A stretch of 64,000 nucleotides of DNA from Cellulomonas sp. S1-8. Lineage in GTDB: Bacteria > Actinomycetota > Actinomycetes > Actinomycetales > Cellulomonadaceae. Below are positions 2,414 to 50,597 of this stretch, one piece after another. The position numbers and the translations under genes were made by a program. The stretch is from contig NZ_CP110806.1 of the NCBI RefSeq assembly GCF_026184235.1, positions 620,001 to 684,000 of the forward strand. The letters are read 5' to 3'. The notes under the pieces are model-generated. The model worked only from the letters and a program-made list of their open reading frames with translations, did no database searches and was not told the DNA's origin. Positions within the stretch are counted from its first letter, which is position 1, and each line of letters begins with the position of its first letter.

Positions 2414-2712
2414 CGCGCGCCCTCGTCGACGGGCGAGTGCGGACCCGCCCGCGTCGCCTCGCCGCGGTCCCGGAGACCGGCCACCGTGCCCTCCTTCATG
2501 CCTGTGACGTGCGGGGACGTCGTCGGACCCGCAGCGGGTCGTCACCGTGACACACCTGCGCACAGCGCGGCAGGGTGGGCATGACACGCCACCCGGTCGG
2601 CGGAGCGTGAGCGGGTGAAACGCAGCCCGAACGGCCCCTTACCGACCGGTAGCGCATCGTGGCCGGCAGTGGCCCGGTCAGGGCGTCGTGGCGCAGGTCG
2701 CACGGATCGGGT
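2414..2712. other. Intergenic stretch, no gene seen
   Basis: The ~300 bases between the SUKH-like gene and the tRNA promoter have no credible reading frame with actinobacterial codon bias. A frame on the minus strand covering the tRNA encodes the familiar artefact PEGTRTPNLLIRSQMLYPLSYG, which is just antisense tRNA. The short dyad GTCACCGTGAC near 2540 is too small to interpret. Confidence 0.6.
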
Positions 2713-2742
2713 TTGGGCTGCAGCCGCCCGTGCCTGTATCGT
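2713..2742 (+). promoter_or_regulatory. Probable tRNA-Arg promoter
   Basis: TTGGGC (2713-2718) and TATCGT (2737-2742) are separated by 18 bases and end 23 bases before the mature tRNA 5' end, a normal layout for a housekeeping-sigma tRNA promoter. Inferred from sequence only. Confidence 0.5.
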
Positions 2743-2765
2743 TCTGGTCGGCCCGTGAGGGTCGT

Positions 2766-2838
2766 GCGCCCGTAGCTCAATGGATAGAGCATCTGACTAC
2801 GGATCAGAAGGTTGGGGGTTCGAGTCCCTTCGGGCGCG
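2766..2838 (+). tRNA. tRNA-Arg (anticodon ACG)
   Basis: A 73-base cloverleaf. The acceptor arm GCGCCCG (2766-2772) pairs with CGGGCGC (2831-2837), followed by discriminator G. The D arm is GCTC...GAGC, the anticodon stem is TCTGA/TCAGA around loop CTACGGA with anticodon ACG, and the T arm contains GGTTCGAGT. It reads CGU and, after A-to-I editing by TadA, CGC and CGA. CCA is not encoded (the next bases are CA then G). Confidence 0.97.
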
Positions 2839-2844
2839 CAGGTC

Positions 2845-2875
2845 GAGAGCCCGGCACACGACGTGCCGGGCTCTC
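2845..2875 (+). terminator. Terminator hairpin after tRNA-Arg
   Basis: A perfect 13-bp stem (GAGAGCCCGGCAC / GTGCCGGGCTCTC) with a 5-base loop starts seven bases after the tRNA. No clear U tract follows, as is usual for high-GC actinobacteria. Confidence 0.8.
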
Positions 2876-2916
2876 GTCGTTCCGTGCTCTCGTCGTCCCG
2901 GGCCGCAGGAGGACAC

Positions 2917-3915
2917 GTGCACCCCGTTCCCGTCCCGCAGGTCGCCTCCACCGGTGCGCTACCCCCGTGGGAGCGCGTCGAGGAGCTCGTGCAGGAGGCG
3001 CACGCGGCCTACCGGGACGACGACAGCGGTGAGGTCGCGGACTACATCCCGGTGCTCGCGCACGCCGACCCGGACCTGTTCGGGCTGTGCGTCTGCGAGG
3101 TCGACGGCGGGATGCACGTGGCGGGCGACGTGGACCACGCGTTCTCGGTGCAGTCGATCTCGAAGGCGTTCGTCCTGGCGCTCGTGACGCAGGCTCGTGG
3201 GCACGACGCGGTGCGCGAGCAGCTGGGCGTCGACAGCACGGGCCAGCCGTTCGACTCGATCGTGGCGGTCGAGCAGGCGGGCGGGCACCCGCGCAACGCC
3301 ATGGTCAACGCGGGTGCCCTGGTCGCGACCGCGCTGGTGCCGGGCGGGTCCGTCGACGAACGGTGGGCGGCCGTGCACGACGGCCTGTCGAGGTTCGCGG
3401 GCCGCCGCCTCGAGCTCGACGAGGACGTGCTGGCCTCGGAGATGGCGGGCAACCAGCGCAACCGCGCCGTCGCGCACCTGCTGGCGAGCCACGGCCGGCT
3501 GCCGCAGGACCCGGCGGAGGTCGTCGACGTCTACACGCGCCAGTGCAGCCTGCTCGTCACCGCGCGCGACGTCGCCGTCATGGGCGCGACGCTCGCCGAC
3601 GGCGGCGTGAACCCGCTGACGGGGGAGCGGGTCGTCGCGGCGGACGTGTGCCGCGACACCCTGGCCGTGCTCGCCACCGCCGGCATGTACGAATGGTCAG
3701 GACGGTGGCTCTACGAGGTCGGGCTGCCCGCCAAGTCGGGCGTCGCGGGCGGGCTCGTCGCCGTCACGCCCGGCAAGGCCGGGATCGGCGCGTTCTCACC
3801 GCGGCTCGACGGCGCGGGCAGCACGGTGCGCGGGCAGCGCGCGGTCGCGCACCTGGCGCGCTCGCTCGGGCTCAACCTGTTCGCGTCGGACGCGCACCCG
3901 TCGCACCGCGCCTGA
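2917..3915 (+). CDS. glsA: Glutaminase (glutamine to glutamate plus ammonia)
   Basis: A 332-residue serine-dependent beta-lactamase-fold glutaminase. Diagnostic motifs are SISK (S80-K83, the SxxK nucleophile/base pair), NAMVNAGAL, EMAGNQRNRAVAHLL, YTRQCSLL and MYEWSGRWLYEVGLPAKSGVAGG. Length is normal for the single-domain bacterial enzyme. GTG 2917 is chosen because AGGAGG lies five bases upstream; any earlier start would read out of the tRNA and terminator. It lies close behind tRNA-Arg and converges with a lipoprotein gene three bases away. Cytosolic; supplies glutamate and ammonia, and in some bacteria helps acid resistance. Confidence 0.93.
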   Translation: MHPVPVPQVASTGALPPWERVEELVQEAHAAYRDDDSGEVADYIPVLAHADPDLFGLCVCEVDGGMHVAGDVDHAFSVQSISKAFVLALVTQARGHDAVREQLGVDSTGQPFDSIVAVEQAGGHPRNAMVNAGALVATALVPGGSVDERWAAVHDGLSRFAGRRLELDEDVLASEMAGNQRNRAVAHLLASHGRLPQDPAEVVDVYTRQCSLLVTARDVAVMGATLADGGVNPLTGERVVAADVCRDTLAVLATAGMYEWSGRWLYEVGLPAKSGVAGGLVAVTPGKAGIGAFSPRLDGAGSTVRGQRAVAHLARSLGLNLFASDAHPSHRA

Positions 3916-11323: not shown

Positions 11324-11776
11324 ATGAGCACCCTCGACCGCCTGACCGCCGACCTGACCACGTCCCTCAAGGCACGCGACACCCTGCGCACCAGCACCCT
11401 GCGCCAGGTCATCGGCGCCGTGCGCCACGAGGCGAAGGCCGGCACGGTCGAGCGCGAGCTCACGGAGGACGAGATCCTGCAGGTCCTGGCCCGCGAGTCG
11501 AAGAAGCGCCGCGAGTCCGCGCAGATCTACACCGACGCGGGCGCCCCCGAGCGTGCCGCGACGGAGACCGCCGAGGCGGACATCGTCGACGGGTACCTGC
11601 CGACGCGCCTCACCGACGACGAGCTCGCCGCGCTGGTCGACGCCGTCGTCGCCGACACCGGGGCGTCGAGCCTCAAGGACATGGGCACGGTCATGAAGGA
11701 GGCGGGCGCCCGGGCGCAGGGCCGCGCGGACGGCAAGGCGCTGTCGACGCTGGTCCGCGCCCGCCTCGCCGGCTGA
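11324..11776 (+). CDS. GatB/YqeY domain-containing protein
   Basis: 150 residues matching the YqeY family along its whole length: STLRQVIGAVRHEAKAG, ELTEDEILQVLARESKKRRESAQIYTDAGAPERAATETAEADIVDGYLPTRLTDDEL and SLKDMGTVMKEAGARAQGRADGKALSTLVRARL. YqeY resembles the tail domain of the GatB amidotransferase subunit and may bind tRNA; its cellular role is not settled. GAGGAT (11312-11317) lies six bases before the ATG, pointing to a leaderless mRNA. Its last 15 bases are copied again at 14601-14615, after the inserted LPRTG gene. Confidence 0.93.
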   Translation: MSTLDRLTADLTTSLKARDTLRTSTLRQVIGAVRHEAKAGTVERELTEDEILQVLARESKKRRESAQIYTDAGAPERAATETAEADIVDGYLPTRLTDDELAALVDAVVADTGASSLKDMGTVMKEAGARAQGRADGKALSTLVRARLAG

Positions 11777-11793
11777 CGCCGAGCCCCGGCCCG

Positions 11794-11952
11794 GTGCTGA
11801 TCGCTCTCCCACCTGGTGGTGAGAGAGCAATCCAGCACACCGAGAAGTCGCGCCTGCACTCCCACCTGGTGGTGAGAGAGCAATCCAGCACGCCGACGCG
11901 TCGTTCCAGCCCCCCCGGGGGGTCGTGACCACTGGTGCTGGATTGCTCTCTC
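11794..11952. repeat. GAGAGAGCAATCCAG palindromic repeats (three copies)
   Basis: Copy 1 (11794-11838) is a hairpin: GTGCTGATCGCTCTC against GAGAGAGCAATCCAGCAC around CCACCTGGTGG. Copy 2 (about 11858-11891) repeats the right half. Copy 3 (11935-11952) is the inverted form GTGCTGGATTGCTCTCTC. The same 15-base arm recurs at 14634-14755 and 50123-50597. Confidence 0.85.
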
Positions 11953-11971
11953 GCGCATGGGGTGTGAGGGG

Positions 11972-12110
11972 TCAGGGGCAGGCGGCGCTTCGTCCTCGAG
12001 AGGTTCGGCCTGCACCGCGTCGGTCAGCGGTCCCCGAGGGCGTCCTGGGGTGCCGGGCCGTCCTGCGGCATGGCTCGTCCGGCGTGCCGTCGCGTCACGG
12101 GCGGCCGTCT
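11972..12110 (-). pseudogene. Remnant of the MFS gene 3' end
   Basis: On the minus strand this encodes a fragment like the C-terminal tail of the MFS protein at 14766-16130: DAVQAEPLEDEAPPAP here versus GAVQDEPLEDEPAPRP there. The position matching the MFS stop (TCA at 11972-11974 on the plus strand) is kept, but one base is missing just before it, so the stop is out of frame. Nothing of the membrane domain remains. It is best explained as half of a duplicated gene junction. Confidence 0.7.
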
Positions 12111-12144
12111 CCCGCCTGCGGGTGAAGCGTCCACGGGTTAATGC

Positions 12145-12172
12145 TTGACCCTTCTGTGCTAATTGGGACAAT
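12145..12172 (+). promoter_or_regulatory. Promoter of the LPRTG surface-protein gene
   Basis: TTGACC (12145-12150), a 16-base spacer rich in A/T, and GACAAT (12167-12172), 42 bases before the ATG at 12214. The stretch GGTTAATGCTTGACCCTTC is unusually A/T-rich for this chromosome, and the promoter is closer to consensus than its neighbours. It could also be read with ACAATC and a 17-base spacer. Confidence 0.6.
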
Positions 12173-12213
12173 CTGGCGGGGTTTGCGTCGTCGCTGGTCT
12201 GAGGGGGCCCCAG

Positions 12214-14592
12214 ATGGACGTGTCACGCCAGGACCAGCCGCGCACGCAGCAGAGGCGTCGAGAGCGGCTCCGCCGCCTGCTCGTCCTCGCCACCGGGTTC
12301 CTGCTCGCCGTCCCGGGCGTGCTCGTCCCCGTCGGCGAGGTGGAGGCCGCGCCCCGCTTCGACGTCCGGTGCGACGAGCTGATCGACGGCATCGACGGCA
12401 CGGCGGGGGACGACGACCTGCCCGGCGGCAAGAACGTGCCGGCCGGGCACAAGGAGAAGATCCCGGACTACACCTACGAGAACTCCTCCGAGGCTTTCAG
12501 GAATCGCGTGGCACCCACCCCGGCGGAGCTCAACGCGCTGCAGGGCGAGTACAAGAGCTTCCCCGCCGGGACCGAGGACCACATGCTCCGTCGCTGGAAG
12601 GAGTACCAGAACAACGGCGGCGAGTGGGACTGGGAGCGCTGGCGCAACACGTACATCCCGAACATGGCCAACGACTCGCGGGGTGACGGGTTCCACCGCA
12701 ACGTCGGGCGGCGCCTCAAGCTCAGCGGACCGGACTGGATCTGCGAGGACACCAAGCTCTGGAACGAGAAGGGTCTCGGTTACGAGCGCCGGTACGACTC
12801 CGTCAACCGGGCGAAGGAGGTCGCCTTCGAGCTCAAGTCCGGTGGCTCACCCCTCAAGCTGGAGCAGCTCAAGGCTGATCAGGCCCTGATGCGGGGCTCG
12901 AGCTGGAGGGTGTACTACGTCTTCAGCCAGGAGCCGCTCCCCGGCCAGATCCGGCTGATGAACCAGCACGGGGTCAAGTACGTCGTGCTGGAGTCCAACG
13001 CCCGCCTGCAGAACCCGCCGGCGAAGCCGGCCAACACGGCCATGAACCCCGACCCGAACAAGCCGACCGGCGGGTCCGCCAAGGACCTCGCCTCGCGTTC
13101 CGGACGGACGGCGGCCGACGCCCGCGAGGCGCGGCGCCTCGCGGAGGACTTCTCGAACGACCAGCGCCGCCAGGGCTTCGGTTCCCGGCGTCCGGGCGGT
13201 ATCGACTGGACCTCGCTCGAGCTCCACTACGTGTCCGACAACCCGCAGACCAAGGACTTCGGGTACGCGTTCTCCGCCGCGGAGCTGCCGGACGACGGCG
13301 AGGCCGAGCCGGGATTCGGGGGAGAGGCTGCGCTCGACCTCTCGTCGGACGCGCTGTTCACCTGGCTGGCTCTGGACCAGGCCCAGTTCTGGGTCAACCT
13401 CAACCCGGACACGCCGGAGTCCATCATCGACCCGCAGTTCGCGACCACGGACGCGGGGCGCGTGCTGCTGCAGGCGGACCTGCGTTTCAAGGAGACGCAG
13501 AACGAGTACATGGACCCGGGGACAGAGCACGGCCAGGCGTTCTGGGACTCGATGGAGCGCACCTCGGAGGGCCTGATCTGCCACGGGTCCTACCGGATGT
13601 GGGTCGAGCCCAAGCCGGCCACCGTCCGCGAGGACGGCGACCAGCTCTACATCCTGGACGCGCCCCTGGCGGCCAGGTACGAGCCGATGGACATCGACTG
13701 GCGCCCGCCGGGACAGGGTGAGGACCTCTGCGAGGACGCGCCCCAGGACATCGTGGACCGCAACACGCAGCGGATCGCCGACACGTTCGCGCCGCTGCTG
13801 GAGCAGCGGGTGAACACCGCCCCGGAGTACGCAGACCTTCGTCGCGTGTACACCTCGCGGGTGGCCGCCCAGTGGCTCAAGGAGCGTGACGCCGAGCGCC
13901 CGGGCGTGTTCCACGACGTCATCGGCTCCGGCGACGTGTCGCAGTGGCCGGCGCGTACCGCGTGGGACCCGCAGGACGTCTTCGACACGTACATCGAGGA
14001 GCTGAGCACACCGCTCTTCCGGTACGAGTGGACCCACGGGGACATGGAGTACTGGATCGACATCGTCGGCGGGGTCACCCTCCCGGACACGCCACGTGAG
14101 GCGATGCCCGCGGAGCAGTTCCAGCAGGAGCACCCGACCCTGCCGACGACCGTGCAGTCCTCGGTCCACGAGGCGGTCAGCGTGCCACTCGCCGCCCCGA
14201 CCGGCGACGCCCTGGGCACCTTCGCCGAGGGCACGGAGAGCATGGCGTGGCTGGGCGGAGGGCCGATCGTCCAGCTCGCGCCGGAGCCGGAGCCGACCGA
14301 CCCGCCGGACCCCGGCCCCACCGACCCCGGCCCCACCGATCCGGGCCCCACCGATCCCGGCCCCACCGACCCGGGCCCCAACGACCCGGGCCCCGGCGCG
14401 GCGCCGGGCGGCCCCGCCGACGGCCCGGCCCGCCCTCGCGGCGGCTCGCCCCGCGAGGGCGTGGCCTGGGCCGGCGGGACGCTGCCCAGGACGGGCTTCT
14501 CGGAGCCCTGGATCGTCCCGACCGCGCTCGGGCTGATCCTGGCCGGCGGGGCGCTCCTGGTGCTGCGGCACCGCTGGCCGCGGCGCCGGTGA
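12214..14592 (+). CDS. LPRTG-anchored surface protein with PD-(D/E)xK-like motif
   Basis: 792 residues. Order: basic N-terminus and signal peptide (~1-46, ending VEAAP); a domain of ~150 residues ending in YDSVNRAKEVAFELKSGGS, which fits a PD-(D/E)xK nuclease core (D195, E206-x-K208) followed by a beta strand VYYVFSQ and helix; a second conserved-looking domain (~330-680) with IDWTSLELHYVS, ALDLSSDALFTWLALDQAQFWVNLNPD and RVLLQADLRFKETQNEYMDP; a Pro/Thr/Asp repeat (DPGPT x5); then LPRTG (757-761), a membrane segment and RHRWPRRR, a sortase signal. Nuclease activity is inferred from the motif only. ATG 12214 lacks a strong Shine-Dalgarno. Base composition is somewhat less G/C-extreme than its neighbours, and the gene sits between long direct repeats. 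Confidence 0.8.
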   Translation: MDVSRQDQPRTQQRRRERLRRLLVLATGFLLAVPGVLVPVGEVEAAPRFDVRCDELIDGIDGTAGDDDLPGGKNVPAGHKEKIPDYTYENSSEAFRNRVAPTPAELNALQGEYKSFPAGTEDHMLRRWKEYQNNGGEWDWERWRNTYIPNMANDSRGDGFHRNVGRRLKLSGPDWICEDTKLWNEKGLGYERRYDSVNRAKEVAFELKSGGSPLKLEQLKADQALMRGSSWRVYYVFSQEPLPGQIRLMNQHGVKYVVLESNARLQNPPAKPANTAMNPDPNKPTGGSAKDLASRSGRTAADAREARRLAEDFSNDQRRQGFGSRRPGGIDWTSLELHYVSDNPQTKDFGYAFSAAELPDDGEAEPGFGGEAALDLSSDALFTWLALDQAQFWVNLNPDTPESIIDPQFATTDAGRVLLQADLRFKETQNEYMDPGTEHGQAFWDSMERTSEGLICHGSYRMWVEPKPATVREDGDQLYILDAPLAARYEPMDIDWRPPGQGEDLCEDAPQDIVDRNTQRIADTFAPLLEQRVNTAPEYADLRRVYTSRVAAQWLKERDAERPGVFHDVIGSGDVSQWPARTAWDPQDVFDTYIEELSTPLFRYEWTHGDMEYWIDIVGGVTLPDTPREAMPAEQFQQEHPTLPTTVQSSVHEAVSVPLAAPTGDALGTFAEGTESMAWLGGGPIVQLAPEPEPTDPPDPGPTDPGPTDPGPTDPGPTDPGPNDPGPGAAPGGPADGPARPRGGSPREGVAWAGGTLPRTGFSEPWIVPTALGLILAGGALLVLRHRWPRRR

Positions 14593-14600
14593 CCGCGCCG

Positions 14601-14910
14601 GCCTCGCCGGCTGACCCCCGGCCCAGCACCTGGTGCTGGATTGCTCTCTCGCGCCCGGGGGTGGGGCTGGATTGCTCTCTCGCGCCCGGGGTGGTGCTGG
14701 ATTGCTTTCTCGCGCCCGGGGGTGGGGCTGGATTGCTCTCTCGCGCCCGGGGGTGACGGGACGGGTCAGGGGCGGGGGGCGGGTTCGTCCTCGAGAGGTT
14801 CGTCCTGCACCGCGCCGGTCAGCGCGCCCGCGTCGGCGTCCTGCGGCGCCGGTCCGTCCTGGAGCGCGGGGTCGTCCTGCGTGCCGTCCTGCGGGGCGGG
14901 GGCCTCGGCC
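14601..14910. repeat. Right long direct repeat (yqeY end to MFS end)
   Basis: Counterpart of 11763-12110. GCCTCGCCGGCTGAC (14601-14615) copies the last bases of yqeY exactly although yqeY itself is 2.8 kb away; this is followed by the repeat arms and the true 3' end of the MFS gene. Together the two copies bracket the LPRTG gene. Confidence 0.75.
14634..14755. repeat. Four 30-31-bp tandem repeats with the CTGGATTGC arm
   Basis: Four copies of CTGGATTGCTCTCTCGCGCC plus a G-rich tail begin at 14636, 14667, 14697 and 14728. All are in the same orientation, unlike the inverted copies at 11794-11952. One copy has CTTTCTC instead of CTCTCTC. Confidence 0.9.
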
Positions 14911-16130
14911 TCCGCCATCGCGCGTCGTCCGGACGGCAGCGCGACGCCCGCGACGACGACGAGCATGAGCGCGATGCCCGCGGCGACCAGCAGCGACTGC
15001 ACCGTGAACCGGTCGGCCAAGGGGCCGAACACGGCCATGCCCAGCGGCATCGCGACGGCCATGACGATGCCGACGAACCCGAAGACGCGGCCCTGCCGCT
15101 CGGGTTCGACCCGCTCCTGCAGGACCGTCATCGTCGGCGTCGAGAAGAACGGCACGCCCAGGCCGATGAGGAACATGAACACGAAGAACACCCACATGTT
15201 CGTCGACAGTCCCAGCCCCACGTTGAGCACGCCGAACACACCGGTCGTCAGGACCACCATGTGCACGCGGTTGCGCATGCCGCCCCACCACGCGATGACG
15301 ACGCCGCCCAGCGTCATGCCGATGCTGAACGCGAGCTCGTTCACGGTGAGCTTCCACACCTCCTCGCCGAACGTCCGCACCACCATGAGCGGGGTGAGGA
15401 ACGACGGAGCGACGATGAGCACGAACACGACGCCCCACATCGCGAGGATCCACCGCACGAACGGCGTCGTCGCGACGTAGCGCACGCCGCCGACGAGGTC
15501 CGCGAGGTACCCGCGCACTCCGGCGACCTGGTCGGTGCGCACCAGGCGCGGCACGGGGACCAGCAGCAGCATGCCGATGCCGATGACGGCGGTGACGACG
15601 TCGGCGAAGAAGATCGCCTCGATCGACGCCCAGGCGTACAGGCCCGCGGCGACCGCAGGTGCGACCAGCATCATCGCGGCCTGGATCGTGGCGTTGATGC
15701 CGTTGACGCGCATCAGCTGGTCGGTCGGGACGATCTGGGGGAGCAGCGCACCGACCGCGGGGGTCTGGATGCCGGCACCGGCGGAGCGGATCGCGGCGGC
15801 CACGTACAGCAGCCACAGGTCGTCGTACCCGGACAGCATGAGCAGCGCGAGCGCGAGGGTGGTCGCGGCGATCGTCGCGTCGGCCCCGATGATGAGGGCC
15901 CGCCGGTCCAGACGGTCGGCCCAGACGCCCCCGAACACCGAGACGACCGCCTGCGGCAGGAACCCGACGGCCGCGTAGACGGCCATGACGGTCCCCGACC
16001 GGGTCTCGAGCGTCAGGTGCCACAGGATCGCGTACTGCACCAGCATCGACCCGAGCAGCGAGAACGTCTGACCGGTGAGGAAGACGGTGACGTCCCGCCG
16101 CCAGCGGGGGCGGTCGGTCGAGGTCGTCAT
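14766..16130 (-). CDS. MFS exporter (DHA3 / macrolide-efflux type)
   Basis: 454 residues with about 12 membrane segments. The N-terminal half has FLTGQTFSLLGSMLVQYAILWHL and the MFS loop motif GGVWADRLDRRALIIGAD; the second half has NRVHMVVLTTGVFGVLNVGLG and ERVEPERQGRVFGF. This pattern is typical of DHA3 proton-drug antiporters related to MefA macrolide efflux pumps. Substrate cannot be assigned. The cytosolic tail (~410-454) is acidic, low-complexity (QDGTQDDPALQDGPAPQD) and its coding sequence is the part duplicated at 11972-12110. ATG 16130 has GAAGGCC upstream, a weak ribosome site. Confidence 0.88.
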   Translation of the reverse strand: MTTSTDRPRWRRDVTVFLTGQTFSLLGSMLVQYAILWHLTLETRSGTVMAVYAAVGFLPQAVVSVFGGVWADRLDRRALIIGADATIAATTLALALLMLSGYDDLWLLYVAAAIRSAGAGIQTPAVGALLPQIVPTDQLMRVNGINATIQAAMMLVAPAVAAGLYAWASIEAIFFADVVTAVIGIGMLLLVPVPRLVRTDQVAGVRGYLADLVGGVRYVATTPFVRWILAMWGVVFVLIVAPSFLTPLMVVRTFGEEVWKLTVNELAFSIGMTLGGVVIAWWGGMRNRVHMVVLTTGVFGVLNVGLGLSTNMWVFFVFMFLIGLGVPFFSTPTMTVLQERVEPERQGRVFGFVGIVMAVAMPLGMAVFGPLADRFTVQSLLVAAGIALMLVVVAGVALPSGRRAMAEAEAPAPQDGTQDDPALQDGPAPQDADAGALTGAVQDEPLEDEPAPRP

Positions 16131-50122: not shown

Positions 50123-50597
50123 CTGGATCACCCTCTCCCGGGAAAGGGGTGGGGTCGGTGTGGGTCGCGCGCTCACCAGGGGGCTCCTCGTCCTGTCGCG
50201 AGAGAGCGAACCAGTTCCGGGTGCTGGGGGCTGGGTGGGGCTGGATTGCCCGCTGACGGGGGAAGGGGTGCCTCACCCTGTTGCGAGAGGGCCATCCAGC
50301 CCTTGGTGAGGGCCGTGGTCGAACTGGATTGCTCTCTCGCGGGGGGAGGGGGTGCCACACCCTGTCGCTAGGGCGATCCAGCCCTTGGTGATGGCCGTGG
50401 TCGAACTGGATTGCTCTCTCGCGGGGGGTGGGGAGTGCCTCACCCTGTCGCGAGGGCGATCCAGCCCTTGGTGATGGCCGTGGTCGAACTGGATTGCTCT
50501 CTCGCGGGGGGTGGGGGGTGCCACACCCTGTCGTGAGAGAGCAATCCAGTTCCGGGTGCTGGGGACTGGGTGGGGCTGGATTGCTCTCTCGCGGGGT
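50123..50597. repeat. Tandem array of ~83-bp palindromic units
   Basis: Arms CTGGATTGCTCTCTCGCG begin at 50241 (variant), 50324, 50406, 50489 and 50576, spaced 83, 82, 83 and 87 bases; a diverged copy is at 50123. Each is answered by an inverted arm such as CGCGAGGGCGATCCAG or GAGAGAGCAATCCAG after a G-rich/CACCCTG centre, and units are joined by CCTTGGTGATGGCCGTGG. The array fills most of the ~700-base gap between the divergent mutY and the gene at 50705. The arms are the same as at 11794-11952 and 14634-14755. Confidence 0.9.

Follow-up and report, generated by a model that had tools for sequence, protein, structure and literature searches.

A single surface-protein gene between duplicated ends of yqeY and an MFS transporter gene in Cellulomonas sp. 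S1-8: a probable horizontal acquisition

Introduction

The T6SS immunity arrays of Vibrio cholerae are described as a setting in which homology-facilitated illegitimate recombination leaves gene remnants (PMC5361080, in the part of that report drawn on here). The locus considered here, an LPRTG surface-protein gene of Cellulomonas sp. S1-8, resembles these arrays in that a new gene occupies a conserved place with the remnant of a displaced gene end beside it; it differs in having duplicated ends on either side of the gene, in the small size of the displaced part, a gene tail of only 130 nt, and in a mechanism that is putative (PMC5361080). Small variable segments, which are single-gene-sized and strain-variable, have been attributed largely to illegitimate recombination, and some 10% have flanking direct repeats, according to the portion of PMC2884548 used here; the present comparison, by contrast, is between species, and its repeats are parts of both neighbour genes. 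Merodiploids of Streptococcus pneumoniae carry tandem duplications arising from transformation with partly repeated DNA (PMC3784515, likewise in part) and share with this locus a repeat–unique–repeat order produced by recombination; their duplications, however, measure about 100–900 kb and involve unequal crossing-over, whereas here one 2.4-kb foreign gene is concerned.

The LPRTG gene was probably acquired horizontally, as a single gene, at the junction where yqeY and the MFS gene converge; this junction would have been duplicated at the first insertion and then have spread with the gene as a block. It would be a well-marked case of a surface-protein gene entering a conserved junction, as an empty site, a second occupied site, a mosaic right boundary and leftover gene tails are all readable at the locus; a duplicated junction, moreover, need not mean a mobile element. 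The window is the whole 64,000-nt stretch analysed (contig NZ_CP110806.1, positions 620,001 to 684,000), and its genome is termed G000; G010 is a relative with the gene at the same site. The features of the locus, in window positions, are as follows.

11324..11776, + strand: yqeY gene, left flank (Pfam YqeY PF09424, E 1.3e-42)
11755..11776, + strand: yqeY 3' tail, copied at 14593-14614 (21/22 identity)
11821..11952: left motif array, copies at 11821-11836 (−), 11874-11889 (−) and 11937-11952 (+)
11959..12092, − strand: left decayed, frameshifted copy of the MFS 3' tail (from 113/134 columns and reading frames)
12095..12213, + strand: upstream region of the surface-protein gene, alignable with G010 from about 12095
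12145-12150 (TTGACC) and 12167-12172 (GACAAT), + strand: promoter-like boxes upstream of the surface-protein gene
12214..14592, + strand: LPRTG surface-protein gene, 792 aa from ATG 12214, LPRTG at 14482-14496
12787-12843, + strand: RRYDSVN...ELKSG stretch inside the surface-protein gene
14593..14624, + strand: yqeY 3'-tail copy after the surface-protein stop codon (28/32)
14635..14742, + strand: right motif array, four forward copies
14766..16130, − strand: intact MFS transporter gene, right flank (Pfam MFS_1, E 4.9e-33)

The duplicated junction

The direct repeats flanking the gene are real, as the original prediction had supposed: the two segments it set against each other give a local alignment score of 123.5, compared with a maximum of 51 among 1419 random 310-nt stretches of the window. 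The single alignment of more than 250 bp that was expected is replaced by two pieces of 167 and 56 nt. The longer piece (11933-12091 against 14723-14888; 82%, E 9e-35) comprises motif and MFS tail, and the shorter, also at 82%, is the yqeY tail. For the MFS 3' tail by itself, 11959-12092 and 14749-14889 are identical in 113 of 134 ungapped columns (84%, 7 gap letters); the left copy derives from the type represented by the MFS 3' tail at 14766-14889. This left copy had been described as frameshifted with the old stop position kept, and MFS-like residues are indeed split over two reverse frames with the stop position retained. On the other side 15 nt of the yqeY end had been recognized; the copy comprises the last 22 nt, directly 3' of the LPRTG gene (14593-14614, 21/22; the best other place in the window, both strands considered, gives 17/22), and extends to 32 nt at 14593-14624 (28/32).

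The predicted order of yqeY tail, intergenic region and MFS tail is found on both sides, and the duplicated halves abut the gene, the yqeY tail at its stop codon and the MFS tail some 50 bp upstream of its promoter. The gene tails are colinear on both flanks, whereas the intergenic middle is not, differing in motif number and orientation (two reverse and one forward copies on the left, four forward copies on the right). The intergenic repeat arms, which had been counted as part of the duplication, are copies of a genome-wide motif and therefore say nothing about this particular event. That the event is not recent agrees with the 84% match of left and right over 134 columns with 7 gap letters; the duplication appears to be older than, or about as old as, the split between the gene copies of G000 and G010 (87% at third codon positions). 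Excision by recombination between the copies, a further suggestion, is expected to be weak because the longest exact word common to both repeats is only 25 nt.

The surface-protein gene and its product

The ATG at 12214 gives a protein of 792 aa, the length of the homologue P0001, so the TTG at 12163 of the open reading frame list is probably not the start codon; the boxes TTGACC and GACAAT are, by eye, presumed to resemble the sigma-70 consensus. The product is most likely a sortase-anchored exported protein, as predicted from a C-terminal LPXTG sorting signal (LPXTG_anchor TIGR01167, 18.7 bits against a cut-off of 15.9). Like LPXTG (sortase) surface proteins it has a signal-peptide-like start, a proline-rich stalk, the LPRTG motif, a hydrophobic stretch and a basic end; unlike them, its remainder falls in an actinobacterial family that is uncharacterised (of 7986 candidates scored, 281 are homologues at E <= 1e-3), with no Pfam match at E <= 1, 0 matches in the PDB and no relatives of solved structure. 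The N-terminal stretch may adopt a restriction-endonuclease fold, as suggested by a motif noted on visual inspection together with weak Pfam matches; of the Tox-REase profiles none matches the protein itself (0/1), and among 35 homologues Tox-REase-9 weakly matches two (best E 0.042) and Tox-REase-7 one (E 0.081). An anti-phage defence label was rejected, PADLOC reporting 0 families for the gene.

The locus in relatives

The yqeY-MFS loci of relatives were compared (n=17; the junction of one, G003, includes 10 N). Single empty junctions had been predicted, and eight of the 17 loci have yqeY facing the MFS gene with nothing between; another eight have no yqeY in the stretch, and one, that of G010, has the gene in the corresponding position but lacks the left MFS copy, which is seen in one genome only. 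In the empty relatives both the MFS tail type and the intergenic hairpins are different. The gene regions of G010 and G000 are 89.9% identical over 2580 nt of DNA; the orthologous yqeY-tail place in G010 gives a weak match of 24/32 (next best in 10 kb, 22), and this copy matches G010's own yqeY tail weakly, at 21/32 (next best place, 20).

Across the genus a long match to the surface-protein gene is found in 7 of 81 genomes, with weak partial matches in three more. In a distant Cellulomonas clade, that of G002, G004, G016, G017 and G035, the gene lies away from the MFS orthologue, on other contigs or, in G016, far off.

Evidence for horizontal transfer

Between G000 and G010 the surface-protein gene is 87.1% identical at third codon positions and the MFS gene 72.5%, a difference that stronger codon constraint on the surface-protein gene could inflate. 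From G000 to the C. fimi clade the surface-protein gene retains 81.6–82.9% third-position identity; for the MFS gene the value between G000 and G017 is 64.1%. The gene is thus far less diverged at these positions than the neighbouring MFS gene, patchily present and found at different sites, all of which are marks of horizontal transfer.

The right boundary is mosaic. In 100-nt windows of the MFS body G010 is 91–100% identical to G003 and 82–92% to G000, while over 14762-14808 it is 95.7% identical to G000 (47 nt) as against 25–43% to G003. The tail type EPLEDEPA, shared by G000 and G010, is absent from the eight empty relatives and from the nearest MFS-tree neighbours of both genomes; among the 120 MFS homologues listed it is found in four, namely the window's own, two C. 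dongxiuzhuiae clusters and the metagenomic P0203, which has a similar extended tail. The MFS 3' tail type switches together with gene presence, and the gene and this tail appear to have been transferred between lineages as one block. G000 is placed beside G078 (95/93) in the MFS tree alone; with abcA and abcB, G078 groups with G072 and G000 is left unplaced, so that the pairing is not confirmed and the order of species is uncertain.

Origin of the insertion

The first insertion probably took place in an unsampled donor lineage with an EPLEDEPA-type MFS tail, and would have duplicated the junction on both sides of the gene, that is the yqeY tail, the intergenic region and about 130 nt of MFS tail. 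From there, homologous recombination through the flanking genes may have carried the block into the lineages of G000 and of G010, the crossover on the right falling within the final 100–150 bp of the MFS gene; G010 would later have lost, or never have received, the left MFS-tail copy, keeping only a decayed yqeY-tail copy 3' of the gene. The locus resembles common gene transfer whose traces have been preserved, rather than a novel type of mobile element. Neither the open reading frame list nor Pfam gives a transposase or integrase gene in the insert, which holds a single sizeable gene without a Pfam match; a simple transposon or insertion sequence, already thought unfit in the original prediction, is rejected on this ground and on the kind of duplication, which consists of gene tails of 22-32 and ~130 nt. 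An integrase-type genomic island was likewise discarded, as a yqeY-tail duplication is present but no integrase gene lies in 11777-14766.

How the first insertion occurred can be read in several ways. One-sided, homology-facilitated illegitimate recombination is possible but not probable; linear DNA would pair at MFS or yqeY and be joined by microhomology at the opposite end, and a truncated remnant of the resident MFS tail would stay behind on the gene's left. A GC-rich candidate microhomology of 9 nt, GCGGGGCGG, does lie exactly at the left joint; in the MFS tail it occupies 14891-14899, immediately beyond the point where the left-right homology stops, and it recurs in G010 (L041:4170) at the corresponding position upstream of the gene. 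A mosaic right crossover lies inside MFS, and the same outcome, displaced gene ends persisting as remnants next to a new gene, is described for the Vibrio T6SS arrays (PMC5361080) and proposed for small variable segments (PMC2884548), in the parts of those reports cited. The right yqeY-tail copy, however, is unexplained unless the donor already carried it, and the left copy shares its tail type with the right one instead of showing a G078-like resident type. Single-crossover (Campbell) integration of a circle carrying a yqeY-gene-MFS type junction, the idea originally put forward, is unlikely: it yields exactly the tail order seen on both sides, and that much of it stands, but no circle was found, no such molecule occurs in any relative compared, the insert has no circle, integrase or replication gene and its sole gene lacks a Pfam match; the 9-nt microhomology is not needed by simple homologous integration and fits illegitimate joining equally.

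It is doubtful that the gene was captured as filler during staggered-break repair, or by replication slippage, with ~300 bp of junction duplicated in one step; both duplicated halves do end directly at the gene, yet there is no independent sign of such an event. Ancestral presence is disfavoured and very improbable. If the clade ancestor had the gene with duplicated flanks, the repeats would have permitted clean loss from the empty relatives; against this stand the different MFS tails and hairpins of those relatives, a much lower divergence of the gene than of MFS in the comparison of G000 with G010, and the shortness of the longest exact common word. That chance similarity and genome-wide repeats imitate a duplication is scarcely credible: motif copies alone would make the sides alike, but the MFS-tail match without the motif is far above the 1419 random stretches, which refutes the idea for this tail, and the yqeY-tail match has no equal elsewhere in the window.

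The flanking motif

The motif flanking the gene is clade-specific and without a known transposase, and poses a question separate from that of the insertion. Its core is about CTGGATTGCTCTCTCRC, some 18 nt long and not palindromic; it has 86 exact copies here, is found in 8 of 81 genus genomes and, with up to 1 mismatch, occurs at 160 places in the genome of 4.5 Mb, where the reversed control has 0. Convergent gene ends account for 19 of 36 classified motif clusters and 10 of 45 other pairs (p 0.0055, with a crude ORF caller on which cluster placement depends, an earlier version having put several differently; p 0.021 if the four clusters lying within predicted ORFs are scored as non-convergent).

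It is improbable that motif arrays at junctions serve as landing pads for single-gene cargo (surface-protein, toxin-antitoxin-like or other), with the LPRTG gene, which has an array on either side, as one cassette, whether they would act directly or by tolerating recombination in letting such genes arrive and depart. Among the motif sites compared, 4 of 21 orthologous sites differ by at least 500 bp between G000 and a relative, and the G000 stretches at these sites contain GNAT, YibE/F, PIN and Phd-type genes; in G010, however, the gene occupies this site and no motif is present there, which counts against this reading. Five other motif-array pairs that bracket genes (L075, L077, L087, L094 and L099) show, by reading, motif and low-complexity spacer only, with no duplicated neighbour gene tail, and the duplication is therefore peculiar to this locus among the six compared.

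Like REP or BIME-type extragenic repeats, the motif is short, intergenic, clustered, present in both orientations and commoner at convergent gene ends; unlike them, it has a non-palindromic core and no Y1_Tnp in the genomes that bear it. RAYT transposases are presumed here to belong to the Y1_Tnp family; PF01797 was found in 1 of 81 genus genomes (G053), which is not among the eight with the motif, and a RAYT/REP origin was rejected on this absence. An Rfam structure was also rejected, the three microRNA matches (E 0.01-0.8) all lying far below the gathering score. In a limited literature search no paper holding the motif 15-mer was found, nor was one on a Cellulomonas intergenic repeat evident. 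At family level the motif is found in 9 of 221 genomes, all of one genus; six viral contigs carry one copy each.

The duplicated yqeY-MFS junction

The surface-protein gene of Cellulomonas sp. S1-8 (genome G000) lies between yqeY and a convergent MFS transporter gene:

11324-11776: yqeY (Pfam YqeY, E 1.3e-42)
12214-14592: surface gene, 792 aa, with an LPRTG sorting signal (LPXTG_anchor exceeds its cut-off)
14766-16130, minus strand: MFS transporter gene

Left of the surface gene, the intergenic region contains three copies of a short intergenic repeat (the motif) together with a decayed duplicate of the MFS 3' tail, frameshifted as originally noted; to the right lie a second yqeY 3' tail and four more copies of the motif. 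The two flanks, proposed to be direct repeats, align with a score of 123.5; 1419 stretches drawn at random from the window reach at most 51. The expected identity of 75-90% agrees with that found (82%), while the expected length of more than 250 bp does not; BLAST returns two pieces, 11933-12091 with 14723-14888 (82% over 167 nt, E 9e-35) and 11755-11808 with 14593-14648 (82% over 56 nt, E 1e-8). In the MFS-tail part 113 of 134 positions are identical, with 7 gap letters; the longest exact word common to both repeats is 25 nt and largely motif. The claim that the yqeY 3' end is repeated right of the surface gene is borne out, as the 22-nt tail has a single off-site match at 21/22 (runner-up 17/22).

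The same order of yqeY tail, intergenic sequence and MFS tail on both sides requires a duplication, which would have been made with the first insertion of the surface gene or just ahead of it. The two repeats diverge by 16% plus indels in non-coding DNA; this is of the same order as the third-position divergence of the surface gene from its copy in the relative G010 (13%), which suggests that the duplication and the split of these gene copies are of similar age.

The locus in relatives

The MFS gene was searched in 81 genus genomes and the loci of 17 relatives were fetched. As the original prediction anticipated, yqeY directly faces MFS in some relatives, namely 8 of the 17 (G078, G079, G018, G033, G060, G003, G045 and G026); the fetched stretch has no yqeY in 8 others, four of which carry it elsewhere, and only G010 has the surface gene between the two. 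The intergenic sequence differs in each of the eight empty junctions, often with hairpins of other sequence. The motif is absent from all nine yqeY-MFS loci (the eight empty ones and G010), and its presence at this junction is therefore peculiar to G000 among the loci seen. G079 (L016/L049) and G060 (L014/L052) have in common another hairpin (CTCGACCTTTGGCGGCTT...AAGCCGCCGAAGGTCGAG), and the hairpins differ again in other relatives; the junction hairpin thus turns over between species.

Homology of G010 to the window runs from ~12095 to 14636 at 89.9% and picks up again at the MFS tail; no MFS-tail copy is present left of its surface gene. Just after the stop codon of its surface gene, G010 agrees with the G000 yqeY tail at 24/32, more than anywhere else outside yqeY in that 10 kb (next 22); compared with G010's own yqeY tail the count is 21, with 20 at the next best place, which makes this a weak match. 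Read by eye, the G010 interval between yqeY and the surface gene also carries a small exported-protein-like gene (L041 3466-3966, minus strand) that is absent from the window.

Horizontal movement of the surface gene and its proposed insertion

The surface gene has long matches in 7 of the 81 genomes and weak partial matches in 3 others. In G002, G004, G016, G017 and G035 it is on a separate contig from the MFS orthologue, or far from it (single-contig G016). Records of C. fimi HM71, C. biazotea, C. algicola and C. septica have homology limited to the surface gene and promoter region (12144-12167 to 14567-14573), with neither yqeY nor MFS nearby; these are not independent of the five genomes, since protein rows are identical for four of the five. 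Third-position identity of the surface gene is 87.1% between G000 and G010 and 81.6-82.9% from G000 to the clade of those five genomes; the corresponding MFS values are 72.5% and 63.5-64.1%.

The MFS tree pairs G000 with G078 (95/93) and G010 with G003 (100/99), both partners being empty; the yqeY tree supports G003-G010 (92/89) and leaves the placement of G000 unsupported, and the abc trees group G078 with G072 instead. In 100-nt windows along MFS, G010 shares 91-100% of positions with G003 and 82-92% with G000; at the MFS end (14762-14808) it becomes G000-like (45/47, 95.7%), versus 25-43% to G003 there. The G000 tail, for its part, departs from that of G078 (73% identity over 48 columns). 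Among ten MFS tails compared (the eight empty relatives included; G072 and G077 outside the comparison), the EPLEDEPA type occurs in G000 and G010 only; it is found in 4 of 120 MFS homologues listed, one of which is metagenomic and has an extended tail resembling that of G000. The simplest reading of the shorter G010 tail is a deletion between short repeats.

The subsequent spread to G000 and G010 would have proceeded through recombination with a crossover within MFS, a step better supported than any mechanism of insertion. For the latter, the 9-nt word GCGGGGCGG lies at 14891-14899, where left-right homology ends in the MFS tail, and also at the matching position upstream of the surface gene in G010, a placement that a microhomology joint would predict. 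One-sided illegitimate recombination is ranked somewhat above the circle integration originally proposed and above capture during break repair, none of the three being proven.

The surface protein

Of 7986 proteins scored, 281 are homologous to the surface protein at E <= 1e-3 and make up a broad actinobacterial family; 35 members align along their length, with invariant residues mostly beyond position 329. The RRYDSVN...ELKSG stretch resembles a PD-(D/E)XK nuclease core; Tox-REase matches are weak and in at most 3 of the 35 members (Pfam), and ExK is missing in some.

The motif and its arrays

Sites of the CTGGATTGCTCTCTC type (at most 1 mismatch) occur at 160 places in the 4.5-Mb genome, against 0 for the reversed control, and seem sparser at 1.2-2.9 Mb among the places listed. 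Eight of 81 genus genomes contain the exact 16-mer, and a 17-mer form, confined to one genus, occurs in 9 of the 221 genomes of the family; the 15-mer was not found in the literature searched for the sequence. In 132 aligned copies a conserved, non-palindromic core of ~18 nt is followed by a G-rich stretch. This clade-specific motif (GRCTGGATTGCTCTCTCRC) forms arrays of 1-7 copies, at 11821-11952, 14635-14742 and 50285-50590 in the window and at further G000 loci (L074-L106). Spacers are near-identical inside one array (local tandem duplication); different arrays have in common mainly the core and the G-rich stretch. The 40 array clusters divide into 19 with convergent neighbouring genes, 15 with tandem and 2 with divergent ones, and 4 within predicted ORFs; compared with 10 of 45 other pairs, convergent settings are enriched (p 0.0055 without the in-ORF clusters, 0.021 with them), figures that rest on a crude ORF caller.

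Other arrays also adjoin genes. The G000 locus L099 has a 2.3-kb stretch between two arrays, carrying a GNAT-type gene as well as one of 487 aa that has no Pfam match; its G010 counterpart (L121) has one motif copy and lacks this stretch. In L076 (G000) a PIN/Phd-YefM toxin-antitoxin-like pair (2555-3198) adjoins an array, in a stretch unaligned to G078 (L141). A gene between two arrays in L087 (2147-3157, minus strand) encodes a protein that has an AbiEi-type domain and matches the MTES_1575 nuclease weakly; this gene is present in G010 and G078, more diverged than its flanks (75-77% DNA).
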